From positions 1 to 55,667 of the forward strand of contig JAHHIL010000034.1 in NCBI GenBank assembly GCA_019358975.1: a stretch of 55,667 bases of DNA. The letters run 5' to 3'. Numbering within the stretch: position 1 is the stretch's first letter; every line of letters begins with the position of its first letter. A program made the position numbers and the translations under genes. The notes under the pieces were generated by a model. The model saw only the letters and a list, made by a program, of their open reading frames with translations, was not told the origin of the DNA and ran no database searches. This document shows, one piece after another, positions 2,785 to 33,240 of the stretch. This stretch comes from Trichocoleus desertorum ATA4-8-CV12 (GTDB lineage: Bacteria; Cyanobacteriota; Cyanobacteriia; FACHB-46).

Positions 2785-4776
2785 GTGTCAAATCGGTTAG
2801 TTCGTCCTGATCCGCTGGCCTCCCAACCACTGAAACGCTCTAAGTATCGGTTACTCGGACTTGTGGGTCAGGGGCAATTTGGTCGTGTTTTTTGTGCGAG
2901 TCATCGTAAAACTGGCCGTCTAGTTGCACTCAAAGAATTAGATCATCAGCGCTTTCCCACTCATAAATTCCTCCGGGAATTGCGCTTTTTGCTGAGCTTG
3001 CAGCATGCCAATATCGTGACCTGTCACGCCCTAGAGCATGGGCGCAGAAGTCGCTATTTGGTCATGGACTACTATGAGGGGGGCACGCTACGCAACCTGA
3101 TGGAGGGTTCAGCGTGTATCACATTGGCTCAAGGCTTGAAGTTGGTGCTAGATATCCTGGCAGGCTTAGCTCATGCCCATCAGCGCAGCATTGTGCATTG
3201 TGACATCAAGCCAGAAAACGTTTTACTGAATACTCAATCTAGTGGTTGGACGGCGCGGATCTCAGATTTTGGCATTGCTCGCTTAAGTCAAGAGCTAGGC
3301 CCGGAGGCGGGTAATACAGGTTCACCTGCCTATATGGCCCCCGAACGCTTTTATGGTCAGTACTTCCCTTCTTCTGACCTCTACGCTGTGGGCATCTTGT
3401 TCTTTGAGTTGCTCCTCGGTTATCGGCCCTTTTCGGGTTCGCCGGCGGAGTTAATGTCGGCTCACCTCAATTCACCTGTCACCATTCCAGAGATCGTCCC
3501 AGCCGAAATTAGTCAACTCCTGCTGAGTGCACTACAAAAACTGCCAGCCCGTCGCTTTCAATCGGCTGCGGAAATGTTAAGTGCGACCCAAACTGCGGTG
3601 GCAGGATTGAGTTCCCGGTTGCTAGAGTCGGTACGATTGCCCCTGCGGCCAGTTCCAGAAGCCTTAGTGCCTCCCTGCGCCTTTCATAGCTTAGAGCAAG
3701 AGCCTTTAATTGCCCCGATGTCTGATATATCCGTGATTGCTTCAGAAGCGGGTCAGTGGCTCTATCGCAGCACTTCTAGCGCCTGTAATGGGGAGATTAT
3801 TACAGATCAGCTGATTTCTACGACTACTTCACCTCTCTCCGTTCAGAAGCAACTGGTAGGTGCAGTAGCTATAACAGAAGCCATTCAAGCTTTGGTGGCA
3901 CGTCCTCAAGGTTGTTTTGCGATCGCCTCTCGTTCGATTTATCTACTGCCATTAGAAAAATCAATTCCTGCAGCTAGCAGTGATGGACGGCTACTGACTC
4001 AATGTTTAGTACAGCTTGAGTCTGATTTTGTGGCGACTGTAGAACCGCAAAGCCATTGGCTGGCAACCGTGACTCGTCAGCCTGAAACAACCGCAAACAT
4101 TACAGTCTGGCATCGTCGGCTGAGCCAACAAGAACCAGAATTTGCGCCTCAAGCAACCATTGAGTATCCAACCGCTGGTCCTTGCCTCATCCTAGCTTTG
4201 GACTCCAGACATATCGCAGCTATTTCCACTTGGGGCAATAATTCTACGGATAGCATGGCGGCTGGAGTGCTTTCTAGTAGTACTAAGCTGTTGAGTGATA
4301 GTTTTCCAGATGGGTTGAGCACTGGCACCTTGATTGCAGGCTTTACCCGGCGAGGCCAAAGCTTAGGCTCTTGGTTGCTGCCTCTCGCGGTTGATTCAGT
4401 GGTTCTCAGTGCGATTCCCTACCGCATCTTGGGGAAAGAGGCAGGTTGCACTCACTCAATGGTGCTAATTGATCTAAAGCCGCTGCGAGTGCGCCGCATC
4501 AGGGTGAGTATAGAGCCAGCCTTCTTTACTGCTACGCCCTGGGGTTATATTTTGGCCGATCAGCAAGGGCAACTCGTTTTGTTAGATGAGGTAGGGCAAC
4601 AAGTCGGTCAGATTGCCGCTCCCATTGCTAATTCCCTTCACTCACCCACTGTAGCGACGGCGATCGCTTCTTTTAATAACTTTGGAGTTCTCCTGGCTAC
4701 CTGGCAGCAAGCAACTCACCAAGGACATATTCACACCCTTGACTTGCGAGAATTTGACCTAGATATGATGTTTTAG
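2785..4776 (+). CDS. spkG: serine/threonine protein kinase, SpkG-like
   Basis: A 663-residue protein starting with GTG. Residues 20 to about 280 form a Hanks-type kinase: glycine loop GQGQFGRV (28-35), ATP-binding lysine K50 in VALKEL, catalytic HCDIKPENVL (D140), DFG at 161-163 and MAPERF. All catalytic residues are present, so it should be active. Residues 300-663 are a long non-kinase region with short beta-rich repeats and no transmembrane helix, possibly a propeller-like sensor domain. It closes the V4R unit with a 14-base gap, as SpkG (slr0152) closes the Synechocystis operon. In Synechocystis SpkG is reported to act on the ferredoxin encoded in the same operon. That ferredoxin gene is absent here, so the substrate must lie elsewhere. 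Confidence 0.82.
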   Translation: MSNRLVRPDPLASQPLKRSKYRLLGLVGQGQFGRVFCASHRKTGRLVALKELDHQRFPTHKFLRELRFLLSLQHANIVTCHALEHGRRSRYLVMDYYEGGTLRNLMEGSACITLAQGLKLVLDILAGLAHAHQRSIVHCDIKPENVLLNTQSSGWTARISDFGIARLSQELGPEAGNTGSPAYMAPERFYGQYFPSSDLYAVGILFFELLLGYRPFSGSPAELMSAHLNSPVTIPEIVPAEISQLLLSALQKLPARRFQSAAEMLSATQTAVAGLSSRLLESVRLPLRPVPEALVPPCAFHSLEQEPLIAPMSDISVIASEAGQWLYRSTSSACNGEIITDQLISTTTSPLSVQKQLVGAVAITEAIQALVARPQGCFAIASRSIYLLPLEKSIPAASSDGRLLTQCLVQLESDFVATVEPQSHWLATVTRQPETTANITVWHRRLSQQEPEFAPQATIEYPTAGPCLILALDSRHIAAISTWGNNSTDSMAAGVLSSSTKLLSDSFPDGLSTGTLIAGFTRRGQSLGSWLLPLAVDSVVLSAIPYRILGKEAGCTHSMVLIDLKPLRVRRIRVSIEPAFFTATPWGYILADQQGQLVLLDEVGQQVGQIAAPIANSLHSPTVATAIASFNNFGVLLATWQQATHQGHIHTLDLREFDLDMMF

Positions 4777-26589: not shown

Positions 26590-27945
26590 ATGACCACTAC
26601 CCCTGTCAAACCTATGGATCTTGATGCCCTAATTGCTGAACTGGCAGGGTTAGAAATCATCACCGATCCCGCTCAGGTGGCTAAGCTTTCGCAGGATTAT
26701 TACACTTTTAGCCCGGTGCTCCAGCCGCAATTAGCTGGGAAGAAAGGCGATTTGGTCGTGCGGGCTATGAGTGAGGCGGACGTGTTGCGGGTAGCGGCGG
26801 CTTGCGTGAAGTTCCGAGTTCCCCTGACGGTGAGGGGAGCAGGCACGGGTAACTATGGGCAATGTGTGCCGCTCAATGGTGGTGTGGTTTTGGATTTGAG
26901 TCCCATGCAAGCGATTCATTGGGTCAAACCCGGATTGGCCTGTGTGGAACCAGGGGTAAAGCTTGCCAATCTCGACAAGAAAACGCGAGAAATCGGCTGG
27001 GAAATCCGTATGGCTCCCTCCACTTACCGCACCGCGACCATTGGTGGATTTATTGCGGGGGGCAGCGGTGGGATTGGCTCGATTACCTATGGGCAACTGC
27101 GCGATCGCGGCAATCTCCTAGCAGTACGGGTGGTGACGATGGAAGACAACCCCCGCGCGATCGAGCTACGCGGCGATGAAGTGCAAAAGGTGAACCATGC
27201 TTACGGCGTGAATGGCATCATCACCGAATTGGAGATTCCCCTTGGCCCTGCTTATCCTTGGGCTGAGTGCATTGTCGGTTTCCCTGACTTCATGACTGCG
27301 GCTCGCTTCGGGCAAACTTTGGCAGACTCCGACGGCATCATCAAGAAACTGATTAGCATCCACGCTTGGCCAGTGCCTACCTATTTTGCGGCGATCCGTT
27401 CTTGTATCCCCGAAGGTGCACACTGTGCGTTGTTGATGGTGGCCGAGTCTTGCCTAGAGCCTCTAGCGGATTTAGTCAAAGAGTATGGCGGCACTGTTTG
27501 CTACCAAAAGACTGCTCAAGAAGCCAGTCATGGCATGCCGTTGGGAGAGTTTTCCTGGAATCACACTACACTTCATGCCCGCAGTGTTGACCCCTCCCTC
27601 ACTTATTTACAAACCCTCTTTCCTGATGACAAAAATCTCAAGTTAGTAGAGCACATCTATCACCACTTTGCCGATGAGCTGATGATGCACCTAGAATTCT
27701 TCCGCGTGGGGAGTGTCGCTCGTCCTGCGGCCCTCCAGTTGGTGCGCTACACCACAGAAGCCCGCCTCAACGAGATCATTGCCTACCACGAAGCCCAAGG
27801 AGCTTTTATCTTCAATCCCCACACTTACATCCTGGAAGATGGCGGCATGAAGACGATTAACGTAGAGCAATTGAAGTTTAAGGAAATGGTCGATCCTTAC
27901 GGCTTGCTCAATCCGGGCAAGATGCGAGCTTGGCTAGAGCGTTAA
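26590..27945 (+). CDS. FAD-binding oxidase/dehydrogenase (GlcD/VAO family)
   Basis: A 451-residue flavoenzyme. The FAD-binding PCMH domain spans about residues 55-230, with VRGAGTGNYGQCVPLNGGVV, a PGVKLANLDKK block and GGFIAGGSGGIGSITYG. The C-terminal LLNPGKM motif is typical of the D-lactate/glycolate oxidase group. The start codon follows the deaminase stop with no gap, so expression is coupled. It likely oxidises the deaminated or ring-opened product. No covalent-flavin histidine is evident in the glycine-rich loop. Substrate unknown. Confidence 0.85.
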   Translation: MTTTPVKPMDLDALIAELAGLEIITDPAQVAKLSQDYYTFSPVLQPQLAGKKGDLVVRAMSEADVLRVAAACVKFRVPLTVRGAGTGNYGQCVPLNGGVVLDLSPMQAIHWVKPGLACVEPGVKLANLDKKTREIGWEIRMAPSTYRTATIGGFIAGGSGGIGSITYGQLRDRGNLLAVRVVTMEDNPRAIELRGDEVQKVNHAYGVNGIITELEIPLGPAYPWAECIVGFPDFMTAARFGQTLADSDGIIKKLISIHAWPVPTYFAAIRSCIPEGAHCALLMVAESCLEPLADLVKEYGGTVCYQKTAQEASHGMPLGEFSWNHTTLHARSVDPSLTYLQTLFPDDKNLKLVEHIYHHFADELMMHLEFFRVGSVARPAALQLVRYTTEARLNEIIAYHEAQGAFIFNPHTYILEDGGMKTINVEQLKFKEMVDPYGLLNPGKMRAWLER

Positions 27946-30528: not shown

Positions 30529-30615
30529 TCACCAAGATCCTCTTCCGGTAATTGCTGCGTCTCCATTCAAGAAACGAATCGCAACTGAAGTATCTAGTGC
30601 AATCTCACCACTCAC
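30529..30615 (-). pseudogene. truncated VapC-type PIN toxin remnant
   Basis: Beginning at a GTG that overlaps the antitoxin stop (30615), the minus strand encodes MSGEIALDTSVAIRFLNGDA, the normal N-terminus of a cyanobacterial VapC with the first PIN-domain aspartate, and then stops after 28 codons (TGA at 30529-30531). The remaining three quarters of the PIN domain are missing; the sequence beyond runs into the neighbouring gene. The toxin is therefore dead. Confidence 0.75.
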
Positions 30616-30814
30616 TCACGTCTACCTGGCGACACTCGGTTGCAATTGCTTGTTGTAGTTCTTCTGCTTCTGAGGTAATTAAAATTCCTGCAAACTTTGC
30701 GAGAGGATGACTCTTGCGGCGAGCCTTAACCCAATGCAAAAAATCCAGCACAGTCTGGACTAGATCATCGGGAGCCTGTTCGAGTTCCTGAATCAATTGC
30801 TCACGATTTGTCAT
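30605..30814 (-). CDS. VapB-like antitoxin, orphaned
   Basis: A 69-residue protein from the ATG at 30814; the frame is open 28 codons further but without conservation. It has the form of DUF2281/VapB-type antitoxins: MTNREQLIQELEQAPDDLVQ and VLDFLHWVKARRK, then a C-terminal toxin-binding tail ending DVSEW. The stop codon overlaps the start of the VapC remnant, the usual arrangement of an intact pair. With the toxin truncated it is an orphan antitoxin that might still neutralise a related toxin elsewhere. Confidence 0.7.
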   Translation of the reverse strand: MTNREQLIQELEQAPDDLVQTVLDFLHWVKARRKSHPLAKFAGILITSEAEELQQAIATECRQVDVSEW

Positions 30815-31155
30815 GCGCTCAAGGTTTCCTACGAAAACATGCTTGTCCAACTTTAGTATATGCAAATACTGAGTTCGGCCATTAGCAAGGTATTTCAATC
30901 GCTATATCGCGATCGCGCCCAACTACATCAGCAAAATCATTATTGACGATATACCGAGTCCTAATACCGCGATGCCCTTCCCCAGCAACGCCACCAACCA
31001 ACTTTGCAGTGCTTTTCCAGCACACCGATAACTACACAGGGAAAAAACTCAACGTGGAGCCAGCTAACATGTTGACTGAGTGGTTGCTGAGAACCTTTGC
31101 AACATCCCTTGCTAGTCTACTCCAACCGAGCTGTTAGTTAACTTATTTGCTATTT
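30815..31155. other. intergenic region, no supported gene
   Basis: About 340 bases upstream of the antitoxin and downstream of the HEPN gene. Open frames here are short and lack ribosome sites or familiar motifs. It may contain a gene fragment, but I cannot name one. Confidence 0.45.
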
Positions 31156-31905
31156 CTACAACACTTGATGGATACTCTCAACAAGCCTCTCAACAAAGTT
31201 AACTGCATCACCAACAAGTACTTCATCAATGTTCCATCGACCTCCAATATTAAAAGTTGGATCTATATCGGCTTCATGAGCAATTTTATTTCTCCGATCA
31301 ACAATTGAATTTAATTGCTGCTTAACATCTTTTGCAGATTTAGTCATTTGAATAGCTACTTCATCCCACAATTTCTTGTCTGAGATGTATCTGATTGCAT
31401 CGGCAATTTTGTCTGCTTGTTGAAAGCTCTGATATCCTAGACGTTCCCTGATTTCACTTTCTAACCAGGAAGTATTATTTAGCTTATCCAGGATGCTACT
31501 TGATATCGCGGGAATTAAGTCTGAAACTGTGTAAGATTGCTGGACAAATGTATACCCTTGAGTTTGTTGAATTTCAGCTTCAAGCCAAGAGGCAATATCA
31601 ATTGCTGTCAGTCGATCTTGACGCGCGCCGCCCAGCGTTACGTGAAAGCGTGAGAACGCTGATTGAGTTGTATTTGCTGAAGGTGCTGGTTCGGAACGAC
31701 TTCCTCGATGGATTTCCAGCATTCCTAATGTTACAACTTCATGTACATAATAATCCAAGGCGCTTACAGCAAGAACCAGTGCAGCACGTAACATGTCTGA
31801 AACATCAAGTGCACCTGTAGCTTGAGCTTTTACAGAATTGTGAAGTGCAATTAGGTCTCGAACACGACTAATACTGATGCGAAACTGGTCAAGCGCTGAC
31901 TGCAT
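31156..31905 (-). CDS. HEPN-domain protein (RiboL-PSP-HEPN-like), probable RNase
   Basis: A 249-residue helical protein. The C-terminal part holds the HEPN ribonuclease motif R-X4-H as R205-NKIA-H210 inside VDRRNKIAHEADIDP, as in RiboL-PSP-type HEPN proteins. Residues 40-60 (AALVLAVSALDYYVHEVVTL) form the first core helix. A 40-residue segment is duplicated: SWLEAEIQQTQGYTFVQQ (106-123) and SWLESEIRERLGYQSFQQ (146-163). It overlaps the upstream ParA-like gene by 17 bases, so the two are made together. HEPN RNases act in toxin-antitoxin and abortive infection systems; that role is inferred here. Confidence 0.78.
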   Translation of the reverse strand: MQSALDQFRISISRVRDLIALHNSVKAQATGALDVSDMLRAALVLAVSALDYYVHEVVTLGMLEIHRGSRSEPAPSANTTQSAFSRFHVTLGGARQDRLTAIDIASWLEAEIQQTQGYTFVQQSYTVSDLIPAISSSILDKLNNTSWLESEIRERLGYQSFQQADKIADAIRYISDKKLWDEVAIQMTKSAKDVKQQLNSIVDRRNKIAHEADIDPTFNIGGRWNIDEVLVGDAVNFVERLVESIHQVL

Positions 31906-32959
31906 ACGTAGAGCTTTCGGAACTTAGTGCAATAATTTTGTCTGCTAAATTTGAAAAAGTTTGTCTAAACTCCTCCTGTTTCTGCTGATTGTTAACTAGG
32001 ACAACTCCTCCTTGTCCTAGTTGCTGAGGAGTTAGTTCATAGACTGGGGTTCGATGCTCTTGAGATTTAGCAATCAGGCTATTAAAATTTGAAATTTTTG
32101 CAAGCGTGAAACTACTTTCAATCCCCTGATTTCTATAGATGTCACTTGGCAACAGCATATTGCTTCGCCCTAGGATTGGAACCAGTTTTTTAGAGACAGC
32201 TTGTTCAATCTTCTCAATCCAGATTTGGAACGCAGTAGTTTCTTTGCCTCGAATAATTCGATAGTTCTGAACAATTGTTCCTAAAAAACGCAGATTAACA
32301 TCAGGAAAAGGATAATTAGCCTCTCTTAGGATTTGAAGTGAACTCGCTGATTTAGCCCAGGCATACCATCTTGGTAAAACCTTAGCCAAAGAGTCGATTG
32401 CCATTACAGAGAAAAAGTCAGCAGTAGTAGGCACTAAGAAGAAGTCACTAATCATCAGCAAATTCTGGTTAATTGAGCCTAAGCTGGGGCTCATATCAAT
32501 CAAGATATAGTCTGCATTAAACTTAGCTGCTGTCTTCTCAAATAAATCATTAATAGAACCTGGCAAGTTCTTAAGAGCTTGAATTGAACCACTCAGCTCT
32601 TGAGCAATGCCTAGTGTTACTTCATACTCAGCAAAGCCAACGTGACCAGGTAATAAAAATAAATCATCTCGACCTTGTATTTGAATGCAATCAACAGCCT
32701 CAATTGCTTTTGGTTGCGACTCGAATGCAGGAGCCAATCCTACCTTTATATTGGAGGTTGTATTGTATATTTCTTGAATTCTCGCCTCGTCATCCTCAGT
32801 TTCCTCTCCCAAAGCCATGCCTGTGAGATTGCACTGGGGGTCGCTGTCAACAAGAATTACTCTTTTTCCTTTTGAAGCAAGCATCCAGCCCAAGTTGAAG
32901 GTGGTTGTAGTTTTGCTGACTCCGCCCTTGTGGTTGAATAAAGCAATTTTTTGAACCAT
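31889..32959 (-). CDS. ParA/Soj-like ATPase paired with HEPN protein
   Basis: A 356-residue ATPase from the ATG at 32959, chosen because AGGAAGG lies upstream and the ParA fold begins at once. The deviant Walker A reads KGGVSKTTTT (11-20; serine where most ParA have glycine), the A' motif VDSDPQCNLTG and Walker B YILIDMSPSLGSINQN. A ParB partner or DNA-binding helix is not seen, and this is unlikely to be a partition gene on its own. Its end overlaps the HEPN gene by 17 bases. ParA-HEPN linkages have been noted in surveys of HEPN proteins, but I know of no characterised example. Confidence 0.8.
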   Translation of the reverse strand: MVQKIALFNHKGGVSKTTTTFNLGWMLASKGKRVILVDSDPQCNLTGMALGEETEDDEARIQEIYNTTSNIKVGLAPAFESQPKAIEAVDCIQIQGRDDLFLLPGHVGFAEYEVTLGIAQELSGSIQALKNLPGSINDLFEKTAAKFNADYILIDMSPSLGSINQNLLMISDFFLVPTTADFFSVMAIDSLAKVLPRWYAWAKSASSLQILREANYPFPDVNLRFLGTIVQNYRIIRGKETTAFQIWIEKIEQAVSKKLVPILGRSNMLLPSDIYRNQGIESSFTLAKISNFNSLIAKSQEHRTPVYELTPQQLGQGGVVLVNNQQKQEEFRQTFSNLADKIIALSSESSTYAVSA

Positions 32960-33134
32960 TGCACCAAGCCTTCCTGTGAGATTGCGATCGCTGGCTGCTC
33001 GAAACAAAACGGAAAAGGTGAGGTCTTTCCTAACCTTTTGTCTTCAGTATAGCTTGAAGCTTTTTGACCGGAGACTTACATGTTCCATATAATACCCCTG
33101 ATTTAGCTAATTACAGAGGATTTCCCAGCATTTC

Positions 33135-33198
33135 TTTGGACTAATTCCCTCTCTCCTTCGGTTTAATATGCCGAAAGCAGTATTAGACGGAATCCAAA
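33135..33198. other. imperfect long hairpin upstream of the ParA-HEPN pair
   Basis: TTTGGA (33135) pairs with TCCAAA (33193-33198), CTAAT (33141) with ATTAG (33183), and CTTCGG with CCGAAAG around the TTTAATATG loop. Three paired blocks with bulges suggest a structured RNA, a decayed palindromic repeat or the terminator of the P450 gene on the other side. The rest of the 33008-33240 spacer shows nothing. Confidence 0.3.
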
Positions 33199-33240
33199 GC
33201 ACTGCAATGCAAATACAACCCAGAAAACAATATCCCTAAT

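Follow-up and report, generated by a model that had tools for sequence, protein, structure and literature searches.

A ParA-like ATPase gene overlapping a HEPN gene in Trichocoleus desertorum: a conserved pair shared with phages and plasmids and a probable conflict module

Why a ParA-type ATPase gene should run into a gene for a HEPN protein, and what the two products might do together, is the question raised by a locus of Trichocoleus desertorum ATA4-8-CV12. The window analysed was the whole of contig JAHHIL010000034.1 (55,667 nucleotides, contig 34 of assembly GCA_019358975.1), from a host genome of 6.06 Mb that is 99.98% complete and contains a single copy of the pair. Both are minus-strand genes. 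The first (31889-32959, stop included) encodes a ParA/Soj-like ATPase of 356 aa with a family-specific C-terminal extension, and it matched Pfam AAA_31 above the gathering cut-off (E 7.5e-31). Its start is taken as the ATG at 32959 (MVQKIALFNHKGGVSKTT), the point at which the relatives also begin; a TTG at 33007 opens the frame too but is not conserved. The second gene (31156-31905) encodes a 249-aa HEPN protein of PF18735, RiboL-PSP-HEPN (E 5.6e-16; 59.4 bits against a gathering score of 28.4), a predicted endoribonuclease, and the same model was matched by 41 of 41 HEPN relatives. Since both matches exceed the gathering cut-offs, the assignment of the pair is more than chance. The two frames overlap by 17 nt (31889-31905), the ATPase ending in YAVSA and its stop and the HEPN protein beginning with MQSAL. 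The ATPase has a deviant Walker A motif, KGGVSKTT (residues 11-18, 32906-32929), which is conserved in relatives, and a Walker B region, YILIDMSP, that includes D155 (32486-32509), while the HEPN active-site motif, R204-R205-N-K-I-A-H210-E-A-D213, lies at 31267-31296. No ParB gene adjoins the pair and no ParB or parS was found in the neighbourhood. The overlap, KGGVSKTT, R205, H210 and the missing ParB had all been pointed out in a preliminary description of this DNA and were confirmed, and R204 proved to be invariant as well.

A search of 85,000 genomes with the HEPN protein returned 154 relatives, and the best 80 of the 154 loci were examined. A ParA homologue was directly upstream of HEPN in 79 of these best 80, and in the remaining one HEPN begins 81 bases from the contig end; within this set the partner of ParA was HEPN in every intact pair. 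The overlap was exactly 17 nt in 60 of 67 intact pairs from several phyla, including Chloroflexota and Planctomycetota; it was 8 nt in Pf-type copies and 1 nt in plasmid copies. HMM searches of 194 cyanobacterial genomes placed HEPN in 16, the ParA lineage in the same 16 at a cut-off of 1e-60 (the analysts' own choice), and the two genes side by side in 16/16 (Fisher p about 1e-23). A wider ParA model recovered four further full-length cyanobacterial relatives (E 1e-53 to 1e-62), three of them in genomes without HEPN, so strict co-occurrence is limited to the close ParA lineage. The spread of the pair was patchy, covering 12 of 96 cyanobacterial genera. On viral contigs from IMG/VR that were found through HEPN, the ParA gene was directly upstream in 15 of 16, and across 41 pairs the HEPN and ParA distance matrices agreed (Mantel r 0.84; 0 of 2000 permutations). 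ParA and HEPN are a true conserved module; adjacency and a kept overlap among homologues, suggested beforehand as checks on the pairing, both held.

A few loci depart from this arrangement. About 7 had only HEPN broken and about 3 only ParA, some of these being MAG errors, and the toxin-first asymmetry of 7 against 3 was not significant (binomial p 0.17). An insert of about 1 kb splits HEPN of a Rhizonema locus (L063, 4267-5283), and one of about 2.4 kb splits ParA of a Dehalococcoidia locus (L074, 2996-5441). Among the viral HEPN loci, only L129 (4656-5303) had no gene of the ParA family upstream.

Residues R204, R205, I208, A209, H210, E211, A212 and D213 were invariant in 41 of 41 aligned HEPN proteins, a conservation that may be inflated by one search pattern that contained NKIAHEAD and by a viral scan that used RRN[KA]I[AV]HE. 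As a control for this bias, R-x4-H was found to be kept in 18 of 18 distinct viral HEPN partners located via ParA, and conservation of R205 and H210, also named in advance as a check, was borne out in both sets. In the ParA alignment of relatives (A2), K11, G12, G13, V14, K16, T17 and T18 were invariant, as were D38, D40, D155 and P158 among the aligned relatives, and KGGVSKT was present in 103 of the HEPN-linked ParA proteins having a readable motif. The ATPase looks active because K11, K16, T17, D38, D40 and D155 do not vary. Values of dN/dS were 0.04-0.12 in ParA and HEPN alike, which denotes purifying selection.

The AlphaFold model of the ATPase (pLDDT 85.6) showed a ParA fold with the C-terminal extension, and its nearest PDB structure was 3pg5 (DIP2308), an uncharacterised Corynebacterium protein of 361 aa. 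For the HEPN model (pLDDT 85.1), Foldseek against the PDB returned nothing significant and the HEPN profile against PDB sequences returned chance coiled coils only, while VIA-align of the same Foldseek list put HEPN proteins on top. Small proteins of the HEPN or HEPN-like kind filled ranks 1-8 (Z 8.2-9.5, rmsd 2.9-4.4, 116-132 residues); such Z values are modest for a helical model, but unrelated chains scored lower. Heading the list were HepT toxins taken from complexes with MntA (Z 9.5, rmsd 3.7, 126 residues), and AbiV and Csm6 came further down. The cyanobacterial long form of HEPN also contains an internal tandem duplication that is not present in the forms of about 200 aa. Copy 1 (residues 106-139, 31489-31590, minus strand) occurs in the long form only and is degenerating, copy 2 (residues 146-179, 31369-31470, minus strand) is the one common to all members, and the local alignment score of 68 between them was reached by 0 of 300 shuffles.

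The pair occupies a variable slot (30537-33224) flanked on one side by a small membrane gene and on the other by a P450 gene; two congeners, both lacking the ParA-HEPN pair, have other RNase-type genes there. In one of them (G201) the flanks are syntenic, the match on the membrane-gene side ending at 30536 and that on the P450 side resuming at 33225, and the slot (L271) codes for a 402-aa NYN/OST-HTH (LabA-like) protein; in the other (G202, L272) a Ymh-family HEPN gene lies beside the same P450 gene. The slot is a swap site for RNase-type genes, with three genes in three genomes. In distant cyanobacteria the genes flanking the pair are wholly different. An upstream block, CCGGTCAAAAAGCTTCAAGCTATACT (33046-33071, minus strand), is conserved in several relatives that have different flanking genes; it is possibly a promoter travelling with the pair, and it gave no sigma-70 score on the minus strand. 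Gain and loss of the pair as a unit fits these observations because the slot is swapped, the distant flanks differ and the upstream block partly persists.

The slot further contains what may be the remains of a VapBC system: a possible VapB-like antitoxin remnant of 97 aa (30605-30898, minus strand), whose DUF2281 match is below the cut-off, and a possible N-terminal VapC (PIN) fragment, a 23-codon frame seen in a six-frame reading (ALDTSVAIRFLNGDAAIT; 30541-30609, minus strand), which has no Pfam match. The preliminary description had taken an adjoining decayed VapBC as a sign of a defence-type neighbourhood. The first part is plausible but weak, given the sub-threshold DUF2281 match and a PIN-like start that Pfam does not recognise; the second does not hold as a general feature. 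The 106 neighbour genes in relatives were mostly ordinary genes plus Uma2 (PDC-S03), which dominated the neighbour matches and is present among the 37 window genes too, and because the two sets hold few true defence genes a defence island around the cyanobacterial copies was rejected. One neighbour recurs elsewhere: a FAD-oxidase gene (26590-27945), 3 kb from the pair, also lies beside the Trichodesmium pair (L050, 2063-3412; 67% identity) and was the only tested flanking gene common to another locus.

Both genes were also found on conjugative Burkholderia glumae plasmids and in many temperate phages. The 10,675-bp record AY324828 of a filamentous Pf-type phage, named Pf1, has a ParA gene annotated as Soj-like and, downstream of it, a HEPN gene at 3498-4025 that carries no annotation in the record (L102). 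A unique ParA-domain gene has been described in the 10.6-kb phage Pf5 (PMC7379572). Pseudomonas phage WX-TY carries both genes, and its HEPN protein belongs to phrog_13503, listed in PHROGs as of function unknown. Viral copies held the positions of cargo genes: in L120 and L128 they had repressor or ImmA-like genes alongside, in L117 an integrase was close by, and in L119 the pair stood between genes for Mu-like virion morphogenesis and for a protease.

Searches of viral contigs led by ParA gave 78 full-length loci, only 19 of which scored with HEPN. In a 76-protein ParA tree, the presence of a HEPN partner required 2 changes against 23.7 expected by chance, and a HEPN-less sister clade (L106-L109, L111, L112, L151-L206) has KGGVSKT and the same C-terminal extension. 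ParA positions specific to the HEPN clade were N70, A78-F79, C91, Y112-L116-Q120, L129, N166, S184-M186 and W201-A205. Solo ParA adjoins the repressor in the P22-like Salmonella phages ST160 and SE1 and the integrase in a P4-like satellite located at a tRNA-Sec gene. Of 5426 E. coli genomes, 109 have it in one near-identical form; it was found in a Helicobacter prophage, and the solo lineage is also on plasmids. A fixed alternative partner was sought among the next genes of solo ParA and none was found, since these genes differ. Given this solo clade, the ATPase must serve some purpose in the absence of the RNase, and its role goes beyond that of an antitoxin. An 86-kb cyanobacterial provirus contig (L131, 4001-4906) has a C-terminally truncated ParA of this lineage, with KGGVGKT and no HEPN.

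These findings are probably best read as an operon-like conflict module, in which a dedicated ParA/Soj-like ATPase would restrain a HEPN metal-independent endoribonuclease and then release or activate it. The RNA cleavage and the binding of the two proteins to each other are inferences, as are the trigger, the benefit and the way in which control runs. The upstream ATPase would be translated first, and the 17-nt overlap would couple translation so that HEPN is made beside the ATPase; the ATPase would dimerise with ATP and bind the HEPN protein. When a phage infects, a rival element is induced or the module is lost, the ATP/ADP or DNA-bound state of the ATPase would shift and free the HEPN dimer, which would cut RNA and halt growth or phage production. 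By analogy with RemN, PrrC and HepT, the best guess for the target is tRNA. The ATPase-first overlap, together with the near absence of HEPN without the ATPase, fits a HEPN protein that is dangerous alone, and mobility on phages and plasmids with slot swapping fits a role in conflict. The toxin or defence role proposed earlier for the pair draws support from its presence in phages and plasmids and from the variable chromosomal slot; layout, mobility and slot swapping therefore favour toxin-antitoxin-like retention, abortive infection or prophage competition. The ATPase may sense invading DNA, as was also proposed earlier. Against the conflict-module reading are that HEPN proteins can be non-catalytic, that decay is not clearly toxin-antitoxin-like, that a sister clade of the same ParA manages with no HEPN and that no defence island was found around the cyanobacterial copies. 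Whether ParA restrains HEPN or triggers it is the point on which narrower readings part, and here the decay counts are about even while solo ParA speaks against a pure antitoxin.

The first of these readings is a classical addiction module, with ParA a plain antitoxin that binds or modifies HEPN, retention of the element as the benefit and no sensing of phages. An overlapping operon with the ATPase first, a HEPN gene that is almost never alone, carriage on plasmids and prophages, the 2013 proposal considered below and HepT toxins as nearest folds all suit this account, but ParA of the same family stands alone in enterobacterial prophage immunity regions and a P4-like satellite, and the decay asymmetry was not significant; it is put forward tentatively. 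A similar degree of belief, short of an even chance, attaches to a sensor-effector system for phage defence or prophage competition, in which HEPN activation would depend on ParA as the sensor, after the logic of RemAIN, PrrC and PARIS. Carriage by phages, satellites and plasmids beside repressors points this way, as do the RemAIN precedent and the phage resistance conferred by GiPD474, a single gene of ParA/Soj type (PMC12724215); however, a RemAIN-like cluster resembles the pair in its ATPase domain only and its third protein is unlike the HEPN protein here, and cyanobacterial neighbourhoods are not defence islands. A broader form of this idea, possible although not favoured, is a widespread anti-phage or prophage-competition family in which a C-terminally extended ParA would gate a HEPN RNase, with two lineages, one having the RNase (in filamentous and tailed phages, plasmids, cyanobacteria and other phyla) and the other using the ATPase alone for defence, be that ancestral or derived.

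A cellular regulator, that is, a non-killing RNase switch in cyanobacterial physiology, would agree with the strong purifying selection on both genes, but presence in 12 of 96 genera, absence from two congeners at the same site and phage carriage make it very unlikely. Least probable is a partition or positioning cassette, with the small downstream product standing in for ParB and its HEPN fold serving for binding alone. The layout of ParA with a small downstream partner, the intact ATPase motifs and some plasmid copies do resemble one, but the partner is a HEPN protein with invariant catalytic R and H, the majority of copies sit in chromosomes or in integrated phages with no need of partition, and neither ParB nor parS was found.

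ParA ATPases are known for the movement of DNA, and the known switches of HEPN proteins include AMPylation (HEPN-MNT) and ABC-ATPases (PrrC, RloC). The present results tie a ParA lineage, across several phyla and phages, to a predicted RNA-cutting enzyme. If the conflict-module reading is right and an ATPase cycle toggles the RNase, the trigger would be unlike either of those switches and would provide a link to RemAIN. Members in a Pf-type Pseudomonas phage and, as the ATPase only, in E. coli prophages make the idea testable in laboratory strains, and the viral family phrog_13503 gains a predicted function as HEPN.

The pair had been presented as a candidate undescribed one, which cannot stand for its kind, since a dyad of HEPN (MAE_18760) and ParA/Soj was predicted in 2013 and proposed as a toxin-antitoxin system with the ATPase as antitoxin (Anantharaman et al., PMC3710099). 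The same survey used the ATPase-first gene order to argue for an antitoxin-first arrangement and noted that HEPN proteins bearing Rx4H act as RNases in many of the systems tested, and it linked RiboL-PSP-HEPN to L-PSP fusions and ParB operons, not to ParA (PMC3710099). As in that dyad, taken from the survey's description, the HEPN protein has Rx4-6H and its gene lies beside that of a ParA/Soj-like ATPase in the MNT position, directly upstream; the dyad was assigned to MAE_18760, whereas HEPN here is RiboL-PSP. Against PF18737, the joint MAE_28990/MAE_18760 model, HEPN scored 22.6 bits (cut-off 26.8), and Microcystis members of its family were also below. The pair is probably not simply of MAE_18760/MAE_28990 type, because the PF18737 genes of Microcystis are without ParA of this lineage, one being beside a ParB/DUF262-like gene.

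RemAIN (STM14_3218-3220) is a Gifsy-1 immunity-region cluster beginning with a ParA-like gene (PMC9879122); RemN is called a HEPN tRNA nuclease (PMC12409363), RemAIN is reported to block the lytic cycles of co-resident and incoming phages (PMC12724215, PMC12409363), and PMC12626290 likewise bears on it as a ParA-like/HEPN tRNase analogue blocking other prophages. RemAIN and the present pair both begin with a ParA-like ATPase gene and include a HEPN RNase, here a predicted one, but RemAIN has three genes (remA-remI-remN) against two, and the next genes are not common between ParA-HEPN loci. A RemAIN-like cluster (L240, 4170-6047; IMGVR_UViG_2657245010_000010) between a repressor and recE, putatively RemAIN from its place in a Gifsy-1-type prophage, has an ATPase of 279 aa that aligned with the one here over the ATPase core only (hhalign 99.3%, residues 3-196); its 220-aa third protein, which has NACHYVHFS, showed no similarity to the HEPN protein here and no Pfam match.

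GiPD474 (Gifsy-1, strain 4/74) is a single-gene phage defence of ParA/Soj type (PMC12724215). Compared by its description, it shares with the solo clade the ParA/AAA_31 fold, a length of about 361 codons and a prophage immunity region, and its size and place are suggestive of kinship; it differs from the pair in having no HEPN partner and a Walker A read as GGVGKT. Gifsy-1 of LT2 is without it. HepT/MntA (HEPN-MNT, type VII) likewise has a HEPN RNase toxin gene after a regulator gene, and gave the nearest solved folds, but its regulator is a nucleotidyltransferase that AMPylates HepT, in contrast to the ParA-type ATPase here. The layout is that of type II/VII toxin-antitoxin systems, a two-gene overlapping operon with the regulator first and a toxin almost never alone. 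ParA/Soj partition ATPases have the same deviant Walker A, Walker B and ParA fold, and the ATPase here differs from them in its C-terminal extension, the S in KGGVSKT, the HEPN partner and the lack of ParB/parS. PADLOC had no model for the pair; HEPN gave no match there, and the ATPase only partial PDC-M28B matches over the P-loop. This branch of ParA-HEPN pairs seems never to have been tested before. On sequence grounds, a RiboL-PSP HEPN with a C-terminally extended ParA would form a branch distinct from both the 2013 dyad and RemAIN, within a kind of ParA-HEPN system that is itself known.
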